A program made the position numbers and the translations under genes. The notes beneath the pieces were generated by a model. It saw nothing but the letters and a program-made list of their open reading frames with translations, was not told the DNA's origin and did no database searches. Shown here piece after piece: positions 5,504 through 42,741 of a stretch of 64,000 nucleotides of DNA (positions are counted from its first letter, which is position 1; every line of letters starts with the position of its first letter). Source of the DNA: Spirosoma luteum DSM 19990. GTDB lineage: Bacteria > Bacteroidota > Bacteroidia > Cytophagales > Spirosomataceae. Location: positions 62,001 to 126,000 of the forward strand of contig NZ_KB893257.1 of NCBI RefSeq assembly GCF_000374065.1, in the 5' to 3' direction.

Positions 5504-5992
5504 GTGAACGCCATCGAACAGCCAAAATCAACCAGCTACAAGAGTTTTTTCTCGTTTTTCCTAACGGCTCTGTTTGGTGCTTCCGTTAATTTTTTCAGCC
5601 AGATTCTTTATCGTAAATACTTCGATTACTCAAACAGTGTTCTTCTGGGGTATCTGACTGCTACGGTCGTTAGCTTTCTGCCAACCAAACTATTTGCGTT
5701 TTCGGCACAGCAAACGGGTAACACAGGCCGAGAAATGGTTAAGTTCGTTATCATTGCGCTGGTAGCCTGGGGGGTTCAGGTAGGTGTAGCTGTCACTACA
5801 CTCGAATGGATTGCCAATCCTTATTTTTCCAACGTATCCGAGTTCTGGCGTGAGAAAGGGTCACACGTGGTCGGGATGGGGTTCAGTTTTCTGGCCAACT
5901 ATTTCGGGCATAAGCTCCTGACATTCCGCACAACGGGGGTTTATGATAGAATTCGCTCCCGCTCATCCAGGGAACAGCAGGAACAATTATAA
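5504..5992 (+). CDS. GtrA-like small integral membrane protein
   Basis: The protein has about 162 residues when started at GTG 5504 and shows four hydrophobic segments (near FFSFFLTALFGASVNFF, LLGYLTATVVSFLPTKLFAF, MVKFVIIALVAWGVQVGVAV and the C-terminal VVGMGFSFLANYFGHKLLTF). This topology and the closing N-Y/F-x-x-x-K-x-x-T-F motif are typical of the GtrA family, which is linked to transfer of polyprenyl-linked sugars across the inner membrane. The frame is open upstream to 5420, but a promoter-like box at 5435 makes that start unlikely. Its sugar substrate cannot be told. It stands alone between nuo and a lipoprotein gene. Confidence 0.75.
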   Translation: MNAIEQPKSTSYKSFFSFFLTALFGASVNFFSQILYRKYFDYSNSVLLGYLTATVVSFLPTKLFAFSAQQTGNTGREMVKFVIIALVAWGVQVGVAVTTLEWIANPYFSNVSEFWREKGSHVVGMGFSFLANYFGHKLLTFRTTGVYDRIRSRSSREQQEQL

Positions 5993-31743: not shown

Positions 31744-32844
31744 TTATCCAAACAGGGTATCCAAATAGTTTGTGACGATTACTGGCTTGGGAAGTTGGTT
31801 GATTTCATCACGATTATACCACGTCAAATAAGGTGGTAAATCTACGGTTGGTACGTCGATAAGGTAGAATCGGGCGTTGATTCGCTGGTGCGATAATAAC
31901 TGAACTGCTTCTATCGGTGAAGCGGCTAAGTCACCCCCCTGCACTAACGCGTAAACAGGATCAGGAGAGGGTATATGCTGTATAAGGTCGGTGATGTTTA
32001 GAACTTTAGGTTGTTCGAACTCGTGTTCAATCAGGTAAAAATCATACAGATTTTGCCATACATCACGGGTCGTTCGTTCTCTAAGTGCGAGTTTTCCATT
32101 GTGCCTGAGAACAAGATACGTGAAGAATCGTTGACGGACGGATGGTTTTTTCGATTTTACGGGCAAGCGATGCTGGCTTCCGGTTAGATAGGCAACGCAG
32201 GCCTGCTGTAAAGGGCACAATAAACAATCGGGGCCGGTAGGAGTACACTGGATAGCACCGAACTCCATAATGGCCTGGTTATAGGTGGCCGGATCGGTAG
32301 CTGATTGAATCAACCGCGCAGCTAACGCAGCAAATGTCTTTTTTGCGGTCGTCGTGGTAATGTCTTCTTTGATGCCATATACCCGGGCCAGTACCCTATA
32401 AACGTTCCCATCGACAACCGGCACTCGCTCACCAAAAGCAAACGAAGCAATAGCGGCAGCTGTATAAACGCCTATACCCTTCATTTTCAGTAAGTCATGA
32501 TAATTTGAGGGGAACTTTTTATCTAAATGTGTCGTTATAAATCGAGCCGTCTGATGCAGGTTTCGGGCGCGGGAATAGTAACCCAGTCCCTGCCATAAAC
32601 GGAGTAATTCACGCTCATCTGCCTGAGCCATATGGGCAACAGTTGGATAAGCATCCACAAACCGTTCGTAGTACGGTTTTCCCTGGGCTACGCGGGTTTG
32701 TTGTAGGATTACTTCCGACAACCAGATGCGGTAAGGGTCTGTGGTGTGACGCCAGGGCAGGTTTCGTTTATGAATAGTGTACCACTGCTCAAGAGTGGGA
32801 GCGAACGTGGTTTCGATGTCGTTAAGGTCTGATTGCCAATTCAA
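31744..32844 (-). CDS. mutY: A/G-specific adenine glycosylase
   Basis: MutY removes adenine mispaired with 8-oxoguanine. The 366-residue protein starts with the NLPWRH segment, has the helix-hairpin-helix LLKMKGIGVYTAAAIASFAFG followed by the catalytic aspartate in VPVVDGNVYRVLARV, and the Fe-S ligands CTPTGPDCLLCPLQQAC (Cys-x6-Cys-x2-Cys-x5-Cys). The C-terminal NUDIX-like domain reads RFYLIDVPTVDLPPYLTWY. The start appears to be TTG 32844, as no ATG lies before the conserved N-terminus. It is divergent from the HU gene. Confidence 0.96.
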   Translation of the reverse strand: MNWQSDLNDIETTFAPTLEQWYTIHKRNLPWRHTTDPYRIWLSEVILQQTRVAQGKPYYERFVDAYPTVAHMAQADERELLRLWQGLGYYSRARNLHQTARFITTHLDKKFPSNYHDLLKMKGIGVYTAAAIASFAFGERVPVVDGNVYRVLARVYGIKEDITTTTAKKTFAALAARLIQSATDPATYNQAIMEFGAIQCTPTGPDCLLCPLQQACVAYLTGSQHRLPVKSKKPSVRQRFFTYLVLRHNGKLALRERTTRDVWQNLYDFYLIEHEFEQPKVLNITDLIQHIPSPDPVYALVQGGDLAASPIEAVQLLSHQRINARFYLIDVPTVDLPPYLTWYNRDEINQLPKPVIVTNYLDTLFG

Positions 32845-32913
32845 AATAAAAGAAAAAAACGGCTGATAGCCGGAAAAACGTAAGTCAGGATTTTTAAAGT
32901 TAGGGGAAAGCTC

Positions 32914-32921
32914 TACCTTTG
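32914..32921 (+). promoter_or_regulatory. Bacteroidota -7 box before the HU gene
   Basis: TACCTTTG is an exact TAnnTTTG match; a T-run (32891-32895) lies at the -33 distance. The HU start codon is 61 nt downstream. Confidence 0.6.
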
Positions 32922-32981
32922 TGCTCCCATTTTGAGACCCAAATTTTCAACAATACAGTAAACGTTAAAGTTTAAGAAGTC

Positions 32982-33284
32982 GTGACGAAAGCAGATGTAA
33001 TTGCCGAGATCGCCGATAAGACCGGTATTGATAAGGCAGAAGTAACAAATACCCTAGAGACTTTCTTTTCAGTAGTTAAGGACTCATTGGCCGAAGGAGA
33101 GAATATTTACGTGAGGGGGTTCGGCAGTTTCATCAATAAGAAACGCGCTCAGAAGGTTGCCAGGAACATTTCCAAGAATACCGCTATGGTAATTGAAGAA
33201 CATTTTATTCCCAGCTTTAAACCAGCGAAAGTTTTTGTAGAGCAGGTTAAAACCAGTGACAAAGCTAAAGTAGCTGCTGAATAG
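32982..33284 (+). CDS. HU/IHF family DNA-binding protein
   Basis: The 100-residue basic protein has the HU fold: MTKADVIAEIADKTGIDKAEV dimerisation helices, then YVRGFGSFINKKR and the arm region with FIPSFKPAKVFVEQV. It bends and compacts DNA as a dimer. The start is GTG 32982, the only suitable codon before the conserved N-terminus. It has its own promoter and is divergent from mutY; a TPR protein, a COX24-type peptide and rng follow on the same strand, a common Bacteroidota order. Confidence 0.95.
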   Translation: MTKADVIAEIADKTGIDKAEVTNTLETFFSVVKDSLAEGENIYVRGFGSFINKKRAQKVARNISKNTAMVIEEHFIPSFKPAKVFVEQVKTSDKAKVAAE

Positions 33285-33337
33285 CCAAATCTGTTAGACT
33301 TGTGAAGCCAGGCGTTTTCTGGTAGTTGATACCCATT

Positions 33338-34192
33338 ATGAATAAATTCGTTTTGCTTGTTGTCCTTTTAGCTGCGTCCCTGACGGTAGGATTGTATACC
33401 CTGCCAACAGTGGTCGTGCAAAATGAAAATAAACAAATTGAAGGGGGGCATACTGCACAAACGCCTGGCTCTGGTCAGTCTGGTACTGATTCGCCCGAAA
33501 TAACTGGTAATGGTTCACCAGCTCACGAGAAACCGCTGGAGCCAAAACAACAAAAACAGTTAGAAACGCTACAGGCTGAGTTTGCCAGTGCCAGTTCAGC
33601 CCAGAAAGAAAGTGTTGGTGAAAAGCTGATTGCTCTGTTTCGGGATGTAACACGGTATGACAGTGCTGCACATTACGCCGATTTACTGGCGCAGGTGCAG
33701 CCAACGGAGAAAAACCTGCTGCGGGCTGGAGATAGTTATTTTGAAGCCTATACGTTTGCTGTCGATGCTAAGAAAACAGCATTTCTGGGCGAGAAAACGC
33801 GGGACTTCTATGGGCAGGCGCTGGCTAAAAATCCAGACTTGCTGTCGGCAAAGGCTAATATGGCAATGACTTACGTAAACACAGAAAACCCGATGCAGGG
33901 AATTATGCTGTTGCGTGAGGTGATTAAGCAGGATCCAACCAATGAGTTAGCCCTCTTTAATTTAGGATTGCTGGCCATGCGCTCTAATCAACATGAAAAA
34001 GCAGTTGAGCGATTCCGGCAAATTTTGGTGAACAACCCATCGAGCCGGAAAGCGCAGTTTTATTTGGGCATCAGTTTAGCGGAAGCCGGCCAGAAAGTGG
34101 AAGCGAGGCAGGTACTCGCCCAGGTGAAGAAACAGGAAAAAGATCCGCAAATTCTTGCCGCAGTGCGCGAGTACGAAGAGCGGCTAAAGTGA
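33338..34192 (+). CDS. TPR-repeat protein, membrane anchored
   Basis: The 284-residue protein has an N-terminal hydrophobic segment (FVLLVVLLAASLTVGLYTL) that may be an uncleaved anchor, a Gly/Thr/Ser-rich linker, and a helical C-terminal part with TPR repeats around LLSAKANMAMTYVNTENPMQG, LALFNLGLLAMRSNQHEKAVE and RKAQFYLGISLAEAGQKVEAR. TPR repeats bind partners; no enzymatic motif is seen. Start ATG 33338 was preferred to TTG 33326. It lies 53 nt after HU and 109 nt before the COX24-type peptide. Function unknown. Confidence 0.8.
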   Translation: MNKFVLLVVLLAASLTVGLYTLPTVVVQNENKQIEGGHTAQTPGSGQSGTDSPEITGNGSPAHEKPLEPKQQKQLETLQAEFASASSAQKESVGEKLIALFRDVTRYDSAAHYADLLAQVQPTEKNLLRAGDSYFEAYTFAVDAKKTAFLGEKTRDFYGQALAKNPDLLSAKANMAMTYVNTENPMQGIMLLREVIKQDPTNELALFNLGLLAMRSNQHEKAVERFRQILVNNPSSRKAQFYLGISLAEAGQKVEARQVLAQVKKQEKDPQILAAVREYEERLK

Positions 34193-34301
34193 GTTCAACC
34201 GGTTATTGCGTAACGTAAGGTTACCGATAAACGAAAAAGTAGAAAGGGTCATACCGAGTGGTGGGCCGACATGTATTTCAACCATTAAATTTTCATACAC
34301 T

Positions 34302-34391
34302 ATGCCTTGCGGTAAAAAACGGAAACGGCACAAGATTGCCACGCACAAGCGGAAAAAACGGCTAAGAAAAAATCGGCATAAGAAGAAATAG
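34302..34391 (+). CDS. COX24/AURKAIP1-type small basic ribosomal protein
   Basis: This 29-residue gene encodes MPCGKKRKRHKIATHKRKKR followed by LRKNRHKKK, almost entirely Lys, Arg and His. It matches the small basic COX24-type peptide conserved in Bacteroidota, a form of which has been described as part of a Bacteroidota ribosome; I recall that description but cannot verify it here. The ATG at 34302 begins the conserved MPxGKKRKRHK motif; the longer frame upstream is not needed. It is upstream of rng, which fits an RNA-related role. Confidence 0.85.
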   Translation: MPCGKKRKRHKIATHKRKKRLRKNRHKKK

Positions 34392-34397
34392 TTATTA

Positions 34398-34456
34398 GTT
34401 TGTCGTGTATGATTGATTGTTCTGCGTAAGCCAGCTATCAGCCATATACGACAAAC
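34398..34456 (+). repeat. Imperfect inverted repeat between the COX24-type gene and rng
   Basis: GTTTGTCGTGTATG (34398-34411) pairs with CATATACGACAAAC (34443-34456), with one mismatch; the pairing continues imperfectly into the loop. A second hairpin at 34472-34519 (GAAGC...GCTTC) is followed by TTTCTTTTTAT and could be the terminator. Confidence 0.65.
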
Positions 34457-34550
34457 AGTAAACTTGCTCGCGGAAGCTTCGGCCGGTCTGTAAAGCCCGA
34501 ACGTGGCTTCTTTCTTTTTATATAGCCATTCTTAACCGTACATTCATCTT

Positions 34551-36113
34551 GTGAGTAATGAATTAGTTATCAGTTCGACTCAGAAAGGTGATCGGATTGC
34601 GCTCTTGCAAAACAAGAGATTGCTGGAGTATCACGAAGAAGAGTTAGACAGCAGCTTTACCGTTGGCGATCTATACTTAGGAACAGTCAAAAAATTATCA
34701 TCGGGACTTAACGCTGCTTTTGTAGATGTAGGTCACGAGAAAGACGGTTTCCTGCATTATCAGGACTTAGGGCCGAATGTTAATTCGCTCAATAAGCTTG
34801 TTAAAGATGTAATTGCCAAGCGAGTCAGTACAGGGCGTATCAGTGGTATGACTCTGGAACCACCCATCGATAAAATAGGCAAAATCGACAAGGTACTGAC
34901 TAAAAATGCGCCTATTCTGGTTCAGGTGGTCAAAGAACCCATCTCAACCAAAGGGCCACGCCTTTCCTGCGACATTTCAATAGCGGGCCGGTACTTAGTC
35001 CTGGTCCCCTTCTCTGACGGTGTAAACCTTTCCAAGAAAATTACTGATCGCGCTGAGCGCTCGCGTCTTATACGCCTGATGTCGTCGTTAAAACCGCAGA
35101 ACTTCGGTGTTATCGTTCGAACTGTAGCACAGGATAAGGACGTAGAAGAACTTGACCGCGATTTGCAAAATTCACTCGCCAAGTGGGATCAGGCCATACA
35201 ATCACTGGCCGATGCCAAACCCCGGGACCGGGTACTGGGCGAAATGAATCGGGCATCGTCTATTCTGCGCGATATGCTCAATGAATCGTTTGAGAGTATT
35301 ACGGTCGATACAAAGGAGTCCTTCGACGAAATCAGAGATTTCATTCATACTATTGCCCCTGACAAGGAGAAAATTGTAAAACTTTACAATGGTAAATCTA
35401 AGGTTTTCGAAGCATTAGGCCTCGAAAAACAACTAAAGTCGTTATTTGGTCGATCCGTAAGCTTGCCCGGTGGCGGTTATCTGATTATTGAGCATACAGA
35501 AGCCCTACACGTTATTGATGTCAATAGCGGCAATAAATCAAATTCTGAAGAGGATCAGGAAGCAACGGCCATCAGCGTAAACCGTGAGGCTGCGAAAGAG
35601 ATTGCCCGGCAACTTCGGTTGCGTGACATGGGAGGGATTATAGTGGTCGATTTCATCGACATGAAGAAAGCAGAGAACAAAAAGTTACTGCAGGATATCA
35701 TGCGGGATGAAATGAAACCGGAACGCTCGAAATTTACGATTCTTCCCCTCACCAAATTTGGGCTGATGCAGATTACCCGTCAGCGCGTCCGGCCCGAAAT
35801 GAACATTGTTACCAGGGAAGTATGTCCAACTTGTGGTGGTACGGGAACTATCCAGGCCAGCGTTCTGGTAACGGATATAATTGAAAACAACCTTGATTAT
35901 ATTCTCACGAAGCAGAATGAGCAGGGTATCTCTATTTCAATGAACCCGTTTCTTTATGCGTACTATACCAAAGGTATTTACTCAAAGCAGATACAGTGGT
36001 ACGTGAAGTACAAGACCTGGATTAAATTGGTCAGAGATAGCTCACTGGGGATGGTCAACTTCAAGTTCTTCAACAAATTAGGGGATGAGATTGAAGTAAG
36101 CAGTAATACCTGA
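34551..36113 (+). CDS. rng: Ribonuclease G
   Basis: RNase G/E processes 16S rRNA precursors and degrades mRNA. The 520-residue product has the N-terminal S1 domain (GDLYLGTVKKLSSGLNAAFVDVG followed by FLHYQDLG), the catalytic DNase I-like domain with metal-binding aspartates in HVIDVNSG and IIVVDFIDMKK, and the zinc-link CPTCGGTG. Length is typical of RNase G rather than the longer RNase E. Start is GTG 34551, right after the preceding spacer. The gene ends 20 nt before a very strong hairpin. Confidence 0.95.
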   Translation: MSNELVISSTQKGDRIALLQNKRLLEYHEEELDSSFTVGDLYLGTVKKLSSGLNAAFVDVGHEKDGFLHYQDLGPNVNSLNKLVKDVIAKRVSTGRISGMTLEPPIDKIGKIDKVLTKNAPILVQVVKEPISTKGPRLSCDISIAGRYLVLVPFSDGVNLSKKITDRAERSRLIRLMSSLKPQNFGVIVRTVAQDKDVEELDRDLQNSLAKWDQAIQSLADAKPRDRVLGEMNRASSILRDMLNESFESITVDTKESFDEIRDFIHTIAPDKEKIVKLYNGKSKVFEALGLEKQLKSLFGRSVSLPGGGYLIIEHTEALHVIDVNSGNKSNSEEDQEATAISVNREAAKEIARQLRLRDMGGIIVVDFIDMKKAENKKLLQDIMRDEMKPERSKFTILPLTKFGLMQITRQRVRPEMNIVTREVCPTCGGTGTIQASVLVTDIIENNLDYILTKQNEQGISISMNPFLYAYYTKGIYSKQIQWYVKYKTWIKLVRDSSLGMVNFKFFNKLGDEIEVSSNT

Positions 36114-36133
36114 CGATATAGTAAAAATTTACT

Positions 36134-36203
36134 ATACCCTATACTTAAAACACCGGGCCTGATTTACTAATAAATCAGGCCCGGTGTTTTAAGTATAGGG
36201 TAT
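36134..36203. terminator. 33-bp perfect hairpin between convergent genes
   Basis: Bases 36134-36166 pair without mismatch to 36171-36203 around the 4-nt loop CTAA. The stem core is ACACCGGGCCTGATTTA. It lies between the rng stop (36113) and the stop of the minus-strand acyltransferase gene (36212), so it can end transcription from both sides, although the flanks are A/T-rich rather than clean T-tracts. Confidence 0.85.
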
Positions 36204-36211
36204 GAGAATAA

Positions 36212-37327
36212 TTAATGAATTATCTCCATGCTTACTAACTCAGTAAATATTTCTTCACCCACTACTTCTTCGACTGAATCTACCGTATGGATGTTCAGCA
36301 GTAGGTCCTTTAAATCTTCTGTAATCTCAAACGTTTGGTAAAGCTGCCGGTCGAACAGGATAGGGGCCTGCTCAAAATCACACAACGTGTAGCGTTTCTC
36401 ATTGAACGTGAGACGCTCGCTAGGATAGCCAAAGAAGGGGTTTTTACGAACTTCTGGTTGTAAAAACAAATGAATGTAGTTCCAGCCTTCCCATTGGCCT
36501 GGATACCGCTTTAGGTATGACCAAAAACCATCGTAAAGCTGTTGCATAACCTCCTGGCAGTACATCTCCCGATCACTTTTAGTAATGGGGCGAATCGGCT
36601 TGAGACAGTGCAGCACATTTGTCATATCATTCTCCCGATAATTTACTACCGGTACGATAGGTACATTTGTGGCGTGCGATAAATACCCAACCCCTTTCCG
36701 CGTGAGCAGCTGTCGTGAACCAAAGCGAACCGACAAAAACTGCGATTCTTCTCCTGCTTCAGGACCCGTTTCCGGGCTACCGTCTACATACACGATTAAT
36801 GATTTCCCGGCCTTTAGTTCCCGCATTATGGTTAAGCCAGCTGCGGGACTCCCAGCCTCAACTACCCGGAAAACATTTGTTAGACTATGCTTCCTGCGTA
36901 GTGCCTCAATATGCTCCGTCATGTCACCCCCCTGGGTACGGTTCATGTTGTTACCAACAAGTAGAACACAGTCGACACCGTTTCTAAAAAGCACACTTGT
37001 CAACAATCGGTAGGAACCGAGATGGTAGGTGCAGTAAATTTTAGGACTGGACTCTTTTTTCAGTAAATAATGATCACCCCGGACCTTTATCAGTTCAGCA
37101 GCCGTGAGGCACTGCTGATCGAATGTTGTATATATTTGCTGCAGCAATAACTCCCTGAAAAGGCTCTTATGATCCTCGCGGGGTATTAAGGGCATAATAT
37201 TCTCAACATTGGCGGAGAAAGTGGTGAACTTCATTAGGTAGCCCCGCTCCTTTGACAGGTCTATCTTTTCGAATTGTTCACGACAGCGCGCTAACTCCTG
37301 GTCATAAAGTTGCCGTGTAGTTAGCAT
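36212..37327 (-). CDS. LpxL-like acyltransferase with C-terminal PqqD-like domain
   Basis: The 371-residue protein has an LPLAT fold of the lauroyl/myristoyl acyltransferase type: HLGSYRLLTSVLF (102-114), IVYVDGSPETG (178-188), LSVRFGSRQLLTRKGVGYLS (198-217) and VPIVPVVNYR (222-231). The usual H-x4-E/D pair reads H102-x4-R107, so the acid is replaced. Residues ~308-371 (YTLCDFEQAPILFDR, TEDLKDLLLNIHTVDSVEEV, FTELVSMEII) resemble a PqqD-like RiPP recognition element. It starts 18 nt after a 54-codon peptide gene on the same strand. I infer that it fatty-acylates that peptide; a lipid-only role or a chance C-terminal tail are alternatives. No transmembrane helix is evident. Confidence 0.65.
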   Translation of the reverse strand: MLTTRQLYDQELARCREQFEKIDLSKERGYLMKFTTFSANVENIMPLIPREDHKSLFRELLLQQIYTTFDQQCLTAAELIKVRGDHYLLKKESSPKIYCTYHLGSYRLLTSVLFRNGVDCVLLVGNNMNRTQGGDMTEHIEALRRKHSLTNVFRVVEAGSPAAGLTIMRELKAGKSLIVYVDGSPETGPEAGEESQFLSVRFGSRQLLTRKGVGYLSHATNVPIVPVVNYRENDMTNVLHCLKPIRPITKSDREMYCQEVMQQLYDGFWSYLKRYPGQWEGWNYIHLFLQPEVRKNPFFGYPSERLTFNEKRYTLCDFEQAPILFDRQLYQTFEITEDLKDLLLNIHTVDSVEEVVGEEIFTELVSMEIIH

Positions 37328-37345
37328 GATTTTTGCTGGCTAAGA

Positions 37346-37510
37346 TTAAAGGGAGAAAACGGGAGTTGAAAACCGATTTAGGTCTGGCCCCATTGCACAG
37401 CATTCTGAAAGAAGTGAAAATTTTAGGATGCTGTTCCGTTCTTTTTTTGCTGTCAAAGAGTTGATTTTTTTCAGTGACTGGGCTGGCTTGATGCTGAATT
37501 GATTTTTCAT
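37346..37510 (-). CDS. Candidate ribosomal peptide precursor
   Basis: This 54-residue gene starts MKNQFSIKPAQSLKKINSLT and ends near LLSECCAMGPDLNRF followed by STPVFSL. The N-terminal half looks like a leader (KNQFSIKPAQSL, charged, helical), and the C-terminal half is hydrophobic with a Cys-Cys pair, Ser and Thr. It lacks a signal peptide. It lies 18 nt upstream of the acyltransferase gene, co-oriented, with a promoter-like TAGCTTTG (37580-37587) upstream. The ATG at 37510 was preferred to a longer frame up to 37600 because the promoter box lies inside that extension. Its being a RiPP precursor is an inference from size and context, without a family match. Confidence 0.55.
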   Translation of the reverse strand: MKNQFSIKPAQSLKKINSLTAKKERNSILKFSLLSECCAMGPDLNRFSTPVFSL

Positions 37511-37579
37511 GATATGTTTAATTAGAATGATTTGATTGCTTTGTTTATCAAGGTGGCGTTGCCTACCTTTTTGTTGATA

Positions 37580-37587
37580 CAAAGCTA
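37580..37587 (-). promoter_or_regulatory. -7 box for the peptide-acyltransferase operon
   Basis: On the minus strand TAGCTTTG fits TAnnTTTG; an ATTG lies near the -33 distance (37608-37611). It would give a leader of about 65 nt before the peptide start at 37510. Confidence 0.5.
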
Positions 37588-37681
37588 CTGGCCATTCCAA
37601 GGGGCATCAATCACAAAAAAGTCACATTGGACAGTTGTGTTTAGTTAAATATTACTACTATATTAGTCTCTGATTTTATTA

Positions 37682-38692
37682 ATGTACCCAATGAAAGAGA
37701 TTCGCCTTACCAAGAGCTTCCTGCGCAATCCGATGAACAGTGTGTATATACTGCTGGTCATCTATTTGCTATTGGAAGCTGCATCCTGGTCTATAGGCTC
37801 TGATATTAAAGTTGCCCGGGTACAGGAAGCAGGTGGCTTTTTAAAGTACATTGGGCGCGTTAGTCGGGAAATACTCTTTCCTGAGTTATGTACCTTATTT
37901 ATCGTTATTTCTCTTCTCAATCGGACTCACACGTGGTTGAAACTGAAAACCGTCAAGTACAAATGGGAGGCCATTGGACAATATGAATTGAAATTTTTCC
38001 CTTTTCTGCTTGTTTCATTCCTTGTATTTAATCCTGTTACCCAGAGTGTACGGTATCTCTTAGAACAATATCAAGCTTACTCATTCGACGATTATTGGAA
38101 TAACTACATGCTGAAAACATTTACCTGGCACTACTATTTTCTGTACCTGTTGCCTGTTTTGCTAATTGGCTATACTTCACTCAATATTTCACTCCTCCAG
38201 GACTATCTAAAACAGCGTCGGGAAGCGCAGGAAGCTGCCGAAGCCGAAGCCGCCAAAGCTGCTCAAAAGGTCCTGGCTTTATCTGAAACCTTCTCTCCAA
38301 AGCCGACCGTTGCTTCATCCCATCTATCGTACCTTAAAGGTAAGAGTGCGTTGGGTGAACTGGATTTTCCGGTCAATGAAGTGTACTACTTTACCGTCGA
38401 AGATCGTTTTTACTATGCTGAATCCATAAAAGAGCGGTATATGGTCAGTAAGACATTGAATGAACTCGAAACTGAACTAGACCCTACCCAATTCTTTCGG
38501 ATTAAGCGCGATTATATTGTTAACCGGCAGGCTGTATTACATTATTCCTACTGGGAAAATGGCAAGTATATCGTTAACTTGAACACGCCTGATCAACACG
38601 AAATAATTGTTCCTCGTGTTCGGATGCATGAGTTCAGAGAATGGCTTCAAGGACGTGATGCCAGTAAGACCGAGCCTGCCAATTTGGTCTAA
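37682..38692 (+). CDS. Membrane-bound LytTR-family regulator
   Basis: The 336-residue protein has four hydrophobic helices in its N-terminal half (VYILLVIYLLLEAASW, LFPELCTLFIVISLL, FFPFLLVSFLVFNPVTQ, YFLYLLPVLLIGYTSLNI), an Ala/Glu-rich helical linker (AQEAAEAEAAKAAQKVLAL), and a C-terminal LytTR DNA-binding domain (VNEVYYFTVEDRFYYAES, FFRIKRDYIVNRQAV, IIVPRVRMHEFREWL). It should bind DNA as a membrane-anchored regulator. It is divergent from the peptide-acyltransferase operon, 82 nt from the -7 box region, so it may control that operon. No histidine kinase or receiver domain is adjacent. Start ATG 37682 or 37691. Confidence 0.85.
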   Translation: MYPMKEIRLTKSFLRNPMNSVYILLVIYLLLEAASWSIGSDIKVARVQEAGGFLKYIGRVSREILFPELCTLFIVISLLNRTHTWLKLKTVKYKWEAIGQYELKFFPFLLVSFLVFNPVTQSVRYLLEQYQAYSFDDYWNNYMLKTFTWHYYFLYLLPVLLIGYTSLNISLLQDYLKQRREAQEAAEAEAAKAAQKVLALSETFSPKPTVASSHLSYLKGKSALGELDFPVNEVYYFTVEDRFYYAESIKERYMVSKTLNELETELDPTQFFRIKRDYIVNRQAVLHYSYWENGKYIVNLNTPDQHEIIVPRVRMHEFREWLQGRDASKTEPANLV

Positions 38693-39202
38693 ATAGCTGC
38701 CGTTTCCGGCAACTCGTCCATTCACCTTCGCCCTAAACGCCGACTAGTTCTCCAGGGTAATAGTAAGTAAGTTTCCTGCACCTTTCTGAGCGAATATCGT
38801 TCGTCACTTTATTCTAACATATGATTACCGTTTGAAATCACCCATTTTATGTGTGATTTCACCTATTTTGACAGAATCTATTATTATTCAATCAGGCGAA
38901 ATAGCCTTTTCACATAAGGACAATTTGATTCCTACTTTCAAAACTCTCTGTTTTTAACTGAGTAAACTACCTATTCTGCCTGGTTAGAACCACCTTTGGA
39001 TTTTGAACCATCTATTACCCGTTAGCCCCGGTAGATCAGCTATCCTTTGCCTGGAAAAAGCAATAGCACCCTTCCATTGAAAGAAGGATGCTACGATGCA
39101 GGGTTGCTAAATTTCCTACCCTGTACTATTAGGTACGCAATGTAAAGGAGGATGGAAAAGCCTGGAAAAGGAGTAGATGAAAAGCACAATCACTCACCTA
39201 TA
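38693..39202. other. Long intergenic stretch with a repeated regulatory-like element
   Basis: Between the convergent ends of the LytTR and response-regulator genes I see no convincing gene. At 38833-38863 lies a 31-nt element whose reverse complement matches 40068-40098 at 26 of 31 positions. Downstream are several small hairpins (for example CCTTC/GAAGG around 39071-39087, and GCAGGG/CCCTGT around 39100-39125). The stretch could hold a small RNA or a promoter region of an unrecognised short gene. Confidence 0.45.
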
Positions 39203-39886
39203 TCAGAGGTAATTCCTAACGGAAACACTATAACGCGGCAATTGTCGACAACTATCCAAATTTAGTTTGTGAGTAATATTGGCCTTATGGTTCACAGCTG
39301 TTCGGTAACTAATATTTAATTGATCAGCGATTTCGCCGGACGTAAATCCGCTGGCAATCATGCGTAATACTTCCCGTTCGCGTTCTGATAGACGATTCAG
39401 CTCTTCACGGGTAGACTCTGAAATCACATCGACACCAAAATTTCGAAGTAAATTCATGAATCCATTACTGTAGTAGCAACCTCCGTTACTAACTGTTTGA
39501 AAGCATTGGTACAATTCGTCCAATCCGTCCGTAGCATATAGAAAACCGTAGAAGCCTTTTTGCATAGCCTTCGCCAACATCCTAAAGTCAGGCTTGCGTG
39601 TGTAAAGGATGAACTTTGTTGCTTGCATCTGCTCAACAATGTCGAAACCGTGTTCATACGAGATGTCTGATTCCAGAATGACACAGTTGGGACGCTTTAC
39701 TCTTATCTGTCGAAGAGTGTCTTCTAACTCAACAGCCCGGCCAACTACGTTATAGCCTTGCTCTTTCAATAGTTGACTCAACACTTCACAGTTAAAGATT
39801 TCAGATTGGGCGACAAGGATTGAAAAGTCCCTACGACGAATAGCAAATTGTCTAGCGCCCTCCTGGACACTGGTAGATGGATTCAT
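39203..39886 (-). CDS. LuxR-type response regulator
   Basis: The 227-residue protein has an N-terminal receiver domain (FSILVAQSEIFNCEVLSQLL; phosphoacceptor aspartate probably in VILESDIS; FILYTRKPDFRMLAKAMQKG) and a C-terminal LuxR/NarL helix-turn-helix (LSEREREVLRMIASGFTSGE followed by IADQLNISYRTAVNHKANI). It should bind DNA as a dimer after phosphorylation. No kinase lies beside it, so the partner is unknown. The 5' region has a TACCAAAAT/ATTTTGGTA palindrome 34 nt before the start and a GTGATTTCA repeat array further upstream. It faces the unknown gene at 40183. Confidence 0.85.
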   Translation of the reverse strand: MNPSTSVQEGARQFAIRRRDFSILVAQSEIFNCEVLSQLLKEQGYNVVGRAVELEDTLRQIRVKRPNCVILESDISYEHGFDIVEQMQATKFILYTRKPDFRMLAKAMQKGFYGFLYATDGLDELYQCFQTVSNGGCYYSNGFMNLLRNFGVDVISESTREELNRLSEREREVLRMIASGFTSGEIADQLNISYRTAVNHKANITHKLNLDSCRQLPRYSVSVRNYL

Positions 39887-39919
39887 GATGGTTTACATAT
39901 TATGGGTGCATGAATGTAA

Positions 39920-39941
39920 TACCAAAATGATGATTTTGGTA
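39920..39941. promoter_or_regulatory. Operator-like palindrome before the response regulator
   Basis: TACCAAAAT and ATTTTGGTA form a perfect 9-bp inverted repeat with a 4-nt spacer GATG. It lies 34 nt upstream of the response regulator start, in or near its 5' leader. A dimeric regulator binding site or a leader hairpin are both possible. Confidence 0.55.
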
Positions 39942-40049
39942 ACACTATATAAATAAAATTCCTATTTCCTTCATGAGGAACAGGAAACCTAGCTTGAATG
40001 GAATGACGTGACTTGAATGAAAAAAGGTTATTTAAGCCCTTGGCTCACG

Positions 40050-40111
40050 GTGATTTCAGGCTTTTTAGGTGATTTCACACCCAAAATGAGTGATTTCACG
40101 CAAAGTGATTT
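40050..40111. promoter_or_regulatory. Array of GTGATTTCA direct repeats
   Basis: GTGATTTCA occurs at 40050-40058, 40069-40077 and 40090-40098, with a partial GTGATTT at 40105-40111. The first three are spaced 19 and 21 nt apart, about two helical turns, as for cooperative binding on one face of the DNA. The array lies between the divergent response regulator and the gene at 40183, so it may serve either. Confidence 0.65.
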
Positions 40112-40182
40112 GCTTTAACCTCTACTAGCATGATATTTTTGATTGACTCAAACGAAAATAGTATATTTAATTTAGTAGGGTA

Positions 40183-40572
40183 ATGAATCAACAAGAATCA
40201 GCAATCGTCTCTGGCTACGAAGCCTCAGTTGAGGAAGTTCAGAAGGTAGTCAAAGAGTGGGCAACTGTAACAGAAGCATTTCATCGTCGTTATGCCAAAC
40301 TGAATCAAGTTATCAATTCATTACACACTACAGCTCGTCAGCAGCCTAATGCTACGGTTAACCGGGTCCGGTTACGCAAACTCATGGAGTTACGTGACCA
40401 TATGAGTGATATTCTGATGACATTACTACTGGATATGTCAGGCAAAAAACCTGGTCGTTCTTTGCAACCTTCCAAATCTGGTCAGCTTCACTCCCATGTT
40501 AGTCTACTCGATGAGATGAACCGGAAAATCGATGCTGAATTGATTAGCTTTACCACGGTAGCGCAGGCATAG
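40183..40572 (+). CDS. Unrecognised small helical protein
   Basis: The 129-residue product is predicted mainly helical and charged (ASVEEVQKVVKEWATVTEAF, TVNRVRLRKLMELRDHMSD, LLDEMNRKIDAELISF). I do not recognise the family, and no signal peptide or membrane helix is seen. It starts 84 nt after the GTGATTTCA array and is followed by a clear terminator, so it is transcribed alone and probably regulated by the factor that binds the array. It is divergent from the response regulator and convergent with dnaG. Confidence 0.6.
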   Translation: MNQQESAIVSGYEASVEEVQKVVKEWATVTEAFHRRYAKLNQVINSLHTTARQQPNATVNRVRLRKLMELRDHMSDILMTLLLDMSGKKPGRSLQPSKSGQLHSHVSLLDEMNRKIDAELISFTTVAQA

Positions 40573-40599
40573 CGTTCACCTTTCCTTTTTGATAGAAGT

Positions 40600-40636
40600 A
40601 AGTTCCAGCCGGTAAGACTGGAACTTTTCCTTTTTA
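40600..40636 (+). terminator. Terminator after the 40183 gene
   Basis: AAGTTCCAG (40600-40608) pairs perfectly with CTGGAACTT (40618-40626) around a 9-nt loop, followed by TTCCTTTTT. It also lies just before the dnaG stop on the other strand. Confidence 0.8.
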
Positions 40637-40644
40637 TGGGCGCT

Positions 40645-42741
40645 TCATCCTGAGATAACAGTGCCCAGAAGGCTGGAAATTTCGATATCTATCCGTTTAA
40701 AGTGCATAAACTCTATCAATAGCTGATCCGCTTCTTCAGGCTTCTTATTACCTGATTCACGGATTAACTGTTGCAGAACAGCCATTCGTTGTTCGGCGAG
40801 CATCTTCTTAATCCGCAAGATATTCCGATAGGCCGCATCAGCCAGAATACCAATTTCTGCTTCCGATGGCACAAAGATTTCGTGCTTTTGCCAGCCATCA
40901 CTGATTTCGTAGCGAGGAGTAGTCAGGTGAATGGCCTGATGCTGAAGTTCGTTCTCGTTAAGCTGTTCGGTACTATCTGATGGGTAATTTAGAAAGTCAC
41001 TGGCTGTCAGAATGGTGCCTTTATTATACGCTTCCCTGTATAAAGTAAGAATAATAGAGAACGGTGATGTTTGAAATTCAATGTCGTGCAGTTCACTTAA
41101 CACGTATTGACACAGCGTGATACCCTGTTCCAGTTCACGACTGCCATAGTTCATCAACAACCTCACGCATTCTTCCTCCTGATACGATAGAGGTGTTCTA
41201 ACCAGCTTTTCTGACGGTCGGGGTGCCTGCGTAACAAACTCGGCTAACGGTCTGGATTCATCGCTTACGGGGGTTTCAATGCTCAATCCCTCAAGCAGTG
41301 CATTGATATCGTCGAGGGAAGGGTCGGCTGAACTTAAAGTATTACTTGAAGCAGTCTGTTGTTTATTTAGTCCTGCTGTTCGCTGCTGTCGCTCGGCATC
41401 TTTTTGGTTTTGATCCTGCTGTTTACGGAGCAGTCGGTTGATTTCAGAAATAACTGATTGTTCGCTGACATGAAACAGTTGAGCGACACGCTGCGATAAG
41501 GTCTGACGCTTGAGTGGGTCTGGTATTTTGGTGATGCTGCTGCACACATCTGAAATGCCCTCCGCTCTTTTAAGTGGATTATCTCCGGCTTCGGTCAACC
41601 ACCTGCTGGCTTTAAAGTCAATAAAATCCTGCGAATGCTCACTGATATATGATGTGAAGGCATCGGCCCCAATTTTATGAACGTAGCTATCAGGGTCTTC
41701 ACCATCGGGCAGTAATAGCAACCTGAGGTTAAGGCCCTCTTCAAGCACCATATCAAGTCCACGGAGAGCCGCTTTAATCCCGGCGGCATCACCATCGTAA
41801 AGAATAGTAACGTTCGGTGTGAAGCGGGAAATGAGCCTGATCTGCTCCGTTGTGAGTGAGGTGCCGGAGGAAGCAACTACGTTTTTTATACCCGCCTGAT
41901 GCAGCGAAATGACATCCGTATACCCTTCGGTTAGGTAGCAGACATCCGCCTGCCGAATAGCCTGCTTCGCCTGGAAGATGCCGTACAAGACCTGGCTCTT
42001 GTGGTATACCGGTGTTTCGGGTGAGTTTAGGTACTTTGGCTGGTTTTTATCTACTTTAAGAATTCGCGCACCAAAAGCTATCACCCGACCTGATACGTTG
42101 TGAATGGGGAACATAACGCGCCCCCGAAACCGGTCGAACTGCTTACGGTCAATACCTGATGTTCCCTCTTTGGTCAGAATAAGGCCGGCTTTCTCTAGCA
42201 ACTCGCGGCTGTGCCCTCTGCGTAGTCCCTCTTGCAGCAAAGCATCCCACTGATCGAGGGTATAGCCCAGTTCAAAGGCTTCGATAGTAGGATTAGTAAA
42301 TCCCCGTTCGCGAAAATAGCTTAAGCCAATGCTTTTCCCCTCGTCAGTAGTGAGCAGCGTTTCCCGGAAAAAGGTTTTGGCAAAGTTTAGGACGATCAAC
42401 AGACTTTCCCGCTCGTTCTGCCGCAGGAGATCTTCCGGTGTCTGCTCCTGCTCTTCAATTTCTATACCGTACTTTTTTGCCAGATACCGGAGCGCTTCCC
42501 CATACCCTACATTTTCAATGTCCATCACAAAGCGAACGGCATCACCCGCTTTGCCACAACCAAAGCACTTATAGATCTGCCGGGTGGGATTTACGTTGAA
42601 TGATGGTGACTTCTCATTGTGGAACGGACAGCAGGCTATATAATTACTACCTCGTTTCTTGAGGGAAACGAAGTCATTTATAACCTCCAGAATGTCGGCA
42701 GACTGACGAATTCGTTCAACTGTTTCTTCGGGAATACGCAT
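40645..42741 (-). CDS. dnaG: DNA primase
   Basis: DnaG makes RNA primers at replication forks. The 698-residue protein has the N-terminal CHC2 zinc-binding domain (CCPFHNEKSPSFNVNP to IYKCFGCGKAGD), the catalytic core with the TOPRIM motifs (CYLTEGYTDVISLHQAG and LYDGDAAGIKAALRG), and a C-terminal helicase-binding region with helical segments. The linker around residues 430-500 is Gln/Ala/Ser-rich and low in conservation. ATG 42741 gives a complete N-terminus (MRIPEETVERIRQSADILEV). It is not next to rpsU or rpoD here. Confidence 0.96.
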   Translation of the reverse strand: MRIPEETVERIRQSADILEVINDFVSLKKRGSNYIACCPFHNEKSPSFNVNPTRQIYKCFGCGKAGDAVRFVMDIENVGYGEALRYLAKKYGIEIEEQEQTPEDLLRQNERESLLIVLNFAKTFFRETLLTTDEGKSIGLSYFRERGFTNPTIEAFELGYTLDQWDALLQEGLRRGHSRELLEKAGLILTKEGTSGIDRKQFDRFRGRVMFPIHNVSGRVIAFGARILKVDKNQPKYLNSPETPVYHKSQVLYGIFQAKQAIRQADVCYLTEGYTDVISLHQAGIKNVVASSGTSLTTEQIRLISRFTPNVTILYDGDAAGIKAALRGLDMVLEEGLNLRLLLLPDGEDPDSYVHKIGADAFTSYISEHSQDFIDFKASRWLTEAGDNPLKRAEGISDVCSSITKIPDPLKRQTLSQRVAQLFHVSEQSVISEINRLLRKQQDQNQKDAERQQRTAGLNKQQTASSNTLSSADPSLDDINALLEGLSIETPVSDESRPLAEFVTQAPRPSEKLVRTPLSYQEEECVRLLMNYGSRELEQGITLCQYVLSELHDIEFQTSPFSIILTLYREAYNKGTILTASDFLNYPSDSTEQLNENELQHQAIHLTTPRYEISDGWQKHEIFVPSEAEIGILADAAYRNILRIKKMLAEQRMAVLQQLIRESGNKKPEEADQLLIEFMHFKRIDIEISSLLGTVISG

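Follow-up and report, generated by a model that had tools for sequence, protein, structure and literature searches.

A conserved short peptide and an acyltransferase with a predicted RiPP recognition domain: a candidate peptide-lipidation system in Spirosomataceae

What is an acyltransferase of the LpxL type doing next to the gene of a very short peptide? The question is raised by a locus in the 64,000-nucleotide stretch of Spirosoma luteum DSM 19990 DNA that we analysed and call the window. A 54-codon peptide gene (37346..37510, minus strand) lies 18 nt upstream of an open reading frame for a 371-residue acyltransferase with an LpxL/PatA fold (36212..37327, minus strand), an arrangement that an earlier note on this DNA had reported and that we confirm. 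The note had also pointed to a strong hairpin at 36134, and computed folding agrees: the near-perfect inverted repeat at 36134..36203, which has no strand of its own, reaches −57.3 kcal/mol (z −14.2), parts the acyltransferase from the downstream, convergently oriented rng (PF10150), and is probably a bidirectional terminator of both genes. On the other side of the pair, TAnnTTTG at 37580..37587 (minus strand), with a TTG 20 nt upstream, is a candidate −7 element for the peptide-acyltransferase transcript; the motif, which follows the −7 consensus of Bacteroidota-type promoters, is present in 46/52 upstream regions of 200 nt.

A frame so small and so close to the next gene could be a leader or attenuator, or a chance open reading frame without a functional product. 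Its distribution argues otherwise. The enzyme has an orthologue in 35/36 genomes of the genus, and these same 35 genomes contain the 42 copies that a peptide profile detects, every one of them at the enzyme locus; the 36th genome (71% complete) has neither enzyme nor peptide. The peptide also stands upstream of the enzyme in each of 27 further family genomes, among them members of Fibrisoma, Larkinella, Runella, Rhabdobacter, Arundinibacter and Persicitalea (G160 is counted among them through record L130, matched by coordinates). All 62 Spirosomataceae genomes with an orthologous enzyme (62/62) thus have the peptide just upstream, which answers the earlier suggestion to look for short frames beside acyltransferase homologues. 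At 143 enzyme loci of the wider family (duplicates included) the peptide pattern is matched at 106; three more (L010 and L101, two copies of one locus, and L053) have a peptide with an F-x-L start motif, and the other 34, all paralogue loci, lack a peptide at that place. Tandem peptide copies occur at L014, L019, L030, L041, L042, L044 and L045. Among 16 close pairs of equal-length peptides dN/dS is 0.03-0.30, with two pairs saturated (dS above 2) and one further pair excluded for an undefined ratio; the peptide evolves under purifying selection, and a lack of conservation, named at the outset as fatal to the idea, is not what we find. Because of these ratios and the conservation of the frame we reject the chance-frame or attenuator reading, to which we give next to no weight.

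The peptide is conserved unevenly along its length. Five columns (M1, F5, I7, E24 and C38) are invariant in 40 aligned peptides, K22 and a Lys at column 3 are nearly so (the window peptide has Asn there), and the C-terminal tails vary. The residue before the last Cys is Cys in 44/54 distinct peptides, as in the 37-38 pair of the window peptide, and Ser in 10/54. A fixed N-terminal part with F5-x-I7, K22 and E24, followed by a variable tail that keeps one Cys, reads in the alignment as the layout of a leader plus core.

The enzyme appears to be built of two domains. Fold comparison assigns residues 1-295 (36443..37327, minus strand) to the LPLAT fold of LpxL, LpxM and PatA, with PatA and LpxM nearest; the window enzyme falls in no Pfam family, and an LPLAT profile run against the sequences of solved structures returned three chance matches and no LPLAT. 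Its nearest relative among named records, where the window's own species was perhaps left out, is from Spirosoma spitsbergense (88% identity). The enzyme family is not widespread in the class, since it is found in 6/396 genomes at 1e-25 when up to 4 candidates per genome are scored; an order-level sample has it in 26/291 genomes at 1e-10, paralogues included. The catalytic domain fold is that of LpxL, LpxM and PatA, but the window enzyme adds an RRE-like domain and carries HX4R instead of HX4(D/E): H102-LGSY-R107 stands where the genome's own LpxL has HQGNWE, and R107 is invariant in 34/34. The dyad has lost its acid, a change that the earlier note had missed.

This loss raises the possibility that catalysis has changed, such that the enzyme makes another bond (an Agr-like thiolactone, for example) or serves only as a scaffold that binds the leader. 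The step from HX4E to an invariant HX4R would fit such a change, and a Cys peptide beside a LytTR regulator resembles Agr. However, the motif His is pattern-matched in 133/145 family frames (duplicates included), fatty-acid synthesis genes lie near many relatives, the C-terminal ends of the peptides are unconserved, and Agr relies on a membrane protease. We therefore consider changed catalysis very unlikely.

The last 67 residues, 305-371 (36215..36415, minus strand), have a high-confidence predicted fold of three strands and three helices, a PqqD-like winged helix like that of RiPP recognition elements (RREs). The structural matches of the model are TbiB1, the lasso B1 protein of 6jx3, McbBCD, the sactipeptide enzymes 5why and 5v1s, and ThcOx, so that the window enzyme would share its C-terminal fold with RRE-bearing RiPP enzymes; we know of none among these that is fused to an acyltransferase. 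Sequence comparisons were negative (0 matches in a PF05402 search of the own genome, 0 matches of a domain profile to solved structures, and an hhalign probability of 0.7% against the N-terminal domains of neighbouring arginases and M50 proteins), and the RRE assignment is accordingly one from predicted structure, in agreement with the PqqD/RRE-like stretch that the earlier note had proposed for residues 308-371. In the models, LPLAT and RRE folds thus stand in one protein. Of the features of RRE-dependent RiPPs, linkage of a short precursor-like gene to a modifying enzyme is found in 62/62 genomes and the RRE fold is found in the predicted structure. A survey of the open-access literature by titles and term counts found, among the papers listed, none that joins an LPLAT/LpxL-type enzyme to a RiPP system.

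Remote relatives of the enzyme place it in a wider context. Among 33 remote-homologue loci, 13 have a RiPP maturase near, nine more have fatty-acid genes (ketoacyl synthase, FabG or FabZ, with no RiPP maturase seen) and 11 have neither in the stretch; of these 11, five belong to a single genus and three to a single genome. The RiPP-linked neighbours include arginases (PF00491 in L134, L136 and L140; by similarity in L138, L176 and L177), M50-like proteases akin to those of daptide and epipeptide systems, ATP-grasp and SPASM proteins of the grasp-with-spasm type (under the NCBIfam cut-offs in L136, by similarity in other loci) and LanB (PF04738/PF14028 in L137, by similarity in L139). A profile of the C-terminal domain matches 19/33 remote loci at 1e-3 or better, including 10/13 of the RiPP-linked ones, and is weak or absent in 14 (L140, L141, L142, L164, L167-L174, L176 and L178); the enzymes of L172-L174 are short (frames of 334-346 aa) and may be missing the greater part of this domain. 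Ten loci (L036, L037, L134, L135, L136, L138, L140, L164, L166 and L177) have precursor-like peptides whose leader is of the LEERLE type, mostly in tandem and each with a Cys in the core; in all but L135 and L140 they were found by a pattern composed after some leaders had already been inspected. Cys-less matches to the pattern in L174 and L176, one frame each, we take for chance; the L176 frame lies inside a longer frame. Putative short coding frames just upstream of or overlapping the enzyme frame in L172-L175 end in KCDFVIL, KCDIEIL, CEYWDL and SCCFDY. In a tree of 50 enzymes the peptide-linked ones come together on one branch (98/91) and those linked to fatty-acid genes on another (95/92); neither the arginase-linked nor the grasp-linked enzymes form a single group, and the placement of several long branches is uncertain. 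From these neighbourhoods the window enzyme appears to belong to a wider family also found in other RiPP clusters, which the earlier picture of an isolated peptide-acyltransferase pair had missed, although the pairing itself stands.

Several of these loci deserve mention in their own right. Two family LPLAT genes lie in tandem within clusters of fatty-acid synthesis and short-peptide genes at L140:4793-7140 and L135:4759-7143. LanB, an AMP-ligase, a ketoacyl synthase and a remote LPLAT share one cluster in L137, a metagenome-assembled genome (MAG) titled Thalassovita sp.; this alphaproteobacterial title is probably wrong, because the same enzyme frame is found in G387:C482, a genome of the window's order. 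Another record titled outside Bacteroidota, L141 (a MAG titled Lysobacter sp.), has a 50-aa frame ending ...YYCCECVGNPDCPSQS at 5653-5802, upstream of a remote LPLAT homologue (5806 onward) that the profile of the C-terminal domain does not clearly match.

It is also possible that the peptide is left unmodified and serves as a small regulatory subunit, bound to the C-terminal domain, of an enzyme that acylates a lipid or an outer-membrane component. The nearest folds, PatA and LpxM, have lipid substrates, and the four-gene module described below holds no export or peptidase genes. But relatives of the enzyme accompany RiPP maturases and tandem, near-identical peptides, as precursors do, and the C-terminal part, variable except for one fixed Cys, resembles a core and not a docking protein. 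We regard a purely regulatory peptide as unlikely.

If the peptide is indeed acylated, which residue takes the acyl group? Lipidated lanthipeptides described in PMC13060382 are made by GNATs and acylated on Orn or Lys side chains or at the N-terminus, and PMC12703449 gives Orn residues as acylation sites in selidamides. The window peptide might by analogy be acylated on Lys, on Ser or Thr, or at the N-terminus that loss of the leader would expose, as selidamides or lipoavitides are. Lys is present in 53/54 post-leader parts, and Arg precedes Cys in peptides of several arginase clusters: RC occurs in every recognised precursor of arginase loci L134, L136 and L177, whereas L138 has it in two peptides out of three and KC in the third. 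Arg before Cys is a tendency of arginase loci, not a rule, as L138 is mixed and L140 contradicts it, having AKCK in place of RC and a core free of Arg. L135 shows RC, and no arginase was seen before its record stops, directly after the peptides; L036, L037, L164 and L166, where no arginase was detected, have SC, VC and CC. Against an acceptor other than Cys, none of the post-leader Lys, Ser or Thr columns is invariant whereas the Cys column is, and the surroundings of the window pair show no arginase gene. We judge such an acceptor rather unlikely.

Comparison with known lipidated peptides sets the window pair apart in several respects. Selidamides and nostolysamides likewise combine a ribosomal, leader-bearing precursor with a fatty-acylating enzyme, which acts on core Orn or Lys (PMC12703449 and PMC13060382), but they use a GNAT. 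The window enzyme is not a GNAT and joins a predicted LPLAT fold to an RRE-like domain; its peptide has an invariant Cys, and no lanthionine synthetase gene lies alongside. Microvionin (a lipolanthine), goadvionins and lipoavitides are lipidated RiPPs, like the product proposed here, and according to PMC13060382 they are class III, N-terminally acylated and lipidated by GNATs; no class III lanthipeptide genes lie beside the window pair. Class I lanthipeptides have LanB in the cluster; by eye, the frame list for positions 32000-42000 of the window holds no LanB-sized frame besides rng, dnaG and the named genes, LanB being found instead beside the remote relatives L137 and L139. The DAG-RiPPs of Bacteroidota (DybA type, MNIO with Lgt/LspA/Lnt) are likewise ribosomal peptides, lipidated on Cys through the lipoprotein pathway, but these have a signal peptide and a lipobox (PMC12636315), and the lipobox pattern [LVI][ASTVI][GAS]C is matched by 0/54 window-type peptides.

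The pair does not stand by itself. Divergent from it lies a gene for a 336-aa regulator with four hydrophobic (membrane) segments and a LytTR DNA-binding domain (37682..38692, plus strand), followed by a gene for a 227-aa protein (39203..39886, minus strand) which, judging by its sequence, we take to be a NarL/LuxR-like regulator. In neighbour tests on 48 named loci the LytTR protein adjoins the pair in 38/38 orthologous loci (L096-L133) and the NarL-type regulator is near it in 37/38, the exception, L130, being a short record; these neighbours persist as far as Arundinibacter and Persicitalea, in whose stretches neither dnaG nor rng was found. Strong matches in 200 family genomes number 61 for the enzyme (<= 1e-67), 61 for the LytTR membrane domain (<= 1e-23) and 62 for the NarL-type regulator (<= 1e-18), with each cut-off set by eye at the gap in its list and weaker matches (4, 6 and 54 genomes, respectively) excluded as paralogues. 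The enzyme and LytTR sets are identical, and the NarL-type set adds G145, where a weak LytTR match and the NarL-type match share one contig. Peptide, enzyme, LytTR protein and NarL-type regulator therefore form a four-gene module, so that the unit first described was right in its pair and too narrow in its extent. Stand-alone copies of the LytTR membrane domain (about 180-200 aa, no DNA-binding domain) are found outside the module in several genomes of Spirosoma and of other members of the family (G076:C4:349857, G135:C1:551275, G050:C3:326500, G004:C1:4763945, G005:C1:455207 and others; loci L156-L163) and could be decoys or separate sensors; in the three of eight such loci that were inspected, no module-type peptide or acyltransferase was seen nearby. 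At L173:8087-9902, in a distant class member, what we take from sequence to be histidine kinase-like and LytTR-type response regulator-like genes follow a short Cys frame and LPLAT pair. To our knowledge, the ligands of membrane LytTR regulators are largely unknown.

We put at roughly 60% the reading that this is a two-gene RiPP-like system in which the leader is held by the RRE, the LPLAT domain fatty-acylates the core, most likely at the invariant Cys, and the product is perhaps sensed by the LytTR protein. The 54-aa peptide would be the precursor, its leader bound through the conserved F5-x-I7 motif by the C-terminal domain of the enzyme. The LPLAT domain would then move a fatty acyl group from the acyl-ACP or acyl-CoA pool of the cell onto the core, where Cys could be S-acylated or, after removal of the leader and an S-to-N shift, become N-acyl-Cys. 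The product might remain in the membrane or pass through it, with the divergent LytTR protein and its four helices as the reader and the NarL-type regulator perhaps in the same circuit. More speculatively, and we think this well short of an even bet, LPLAT-RRE proteins may be RiPP maturases of a new class, S-acylating Cys in short peptides of several Bacteroidota systems, with the membrane-anchored LytTR protein as receptor for the Spirosomataceae lipopeptide in a four-gene, Gram-negative signalling circuit.

Why would such a system matter? If the acylation proves true, the LPLAT would be a second dedicated enzyme fold, besides GNAT, for attaching lipid to ribosomal peptides. Leader recognition and catalysis would be united in one 371-aa protein, and the system is therefore testable with two genes in E. 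coli. The family would also help to find lipidated RiPPs of Bacteroidota by genome mining, including those of arginase, grasp-with-spasm and LanB clusters, and the peptide would be a candidate signal for membrane LytTR regulators.
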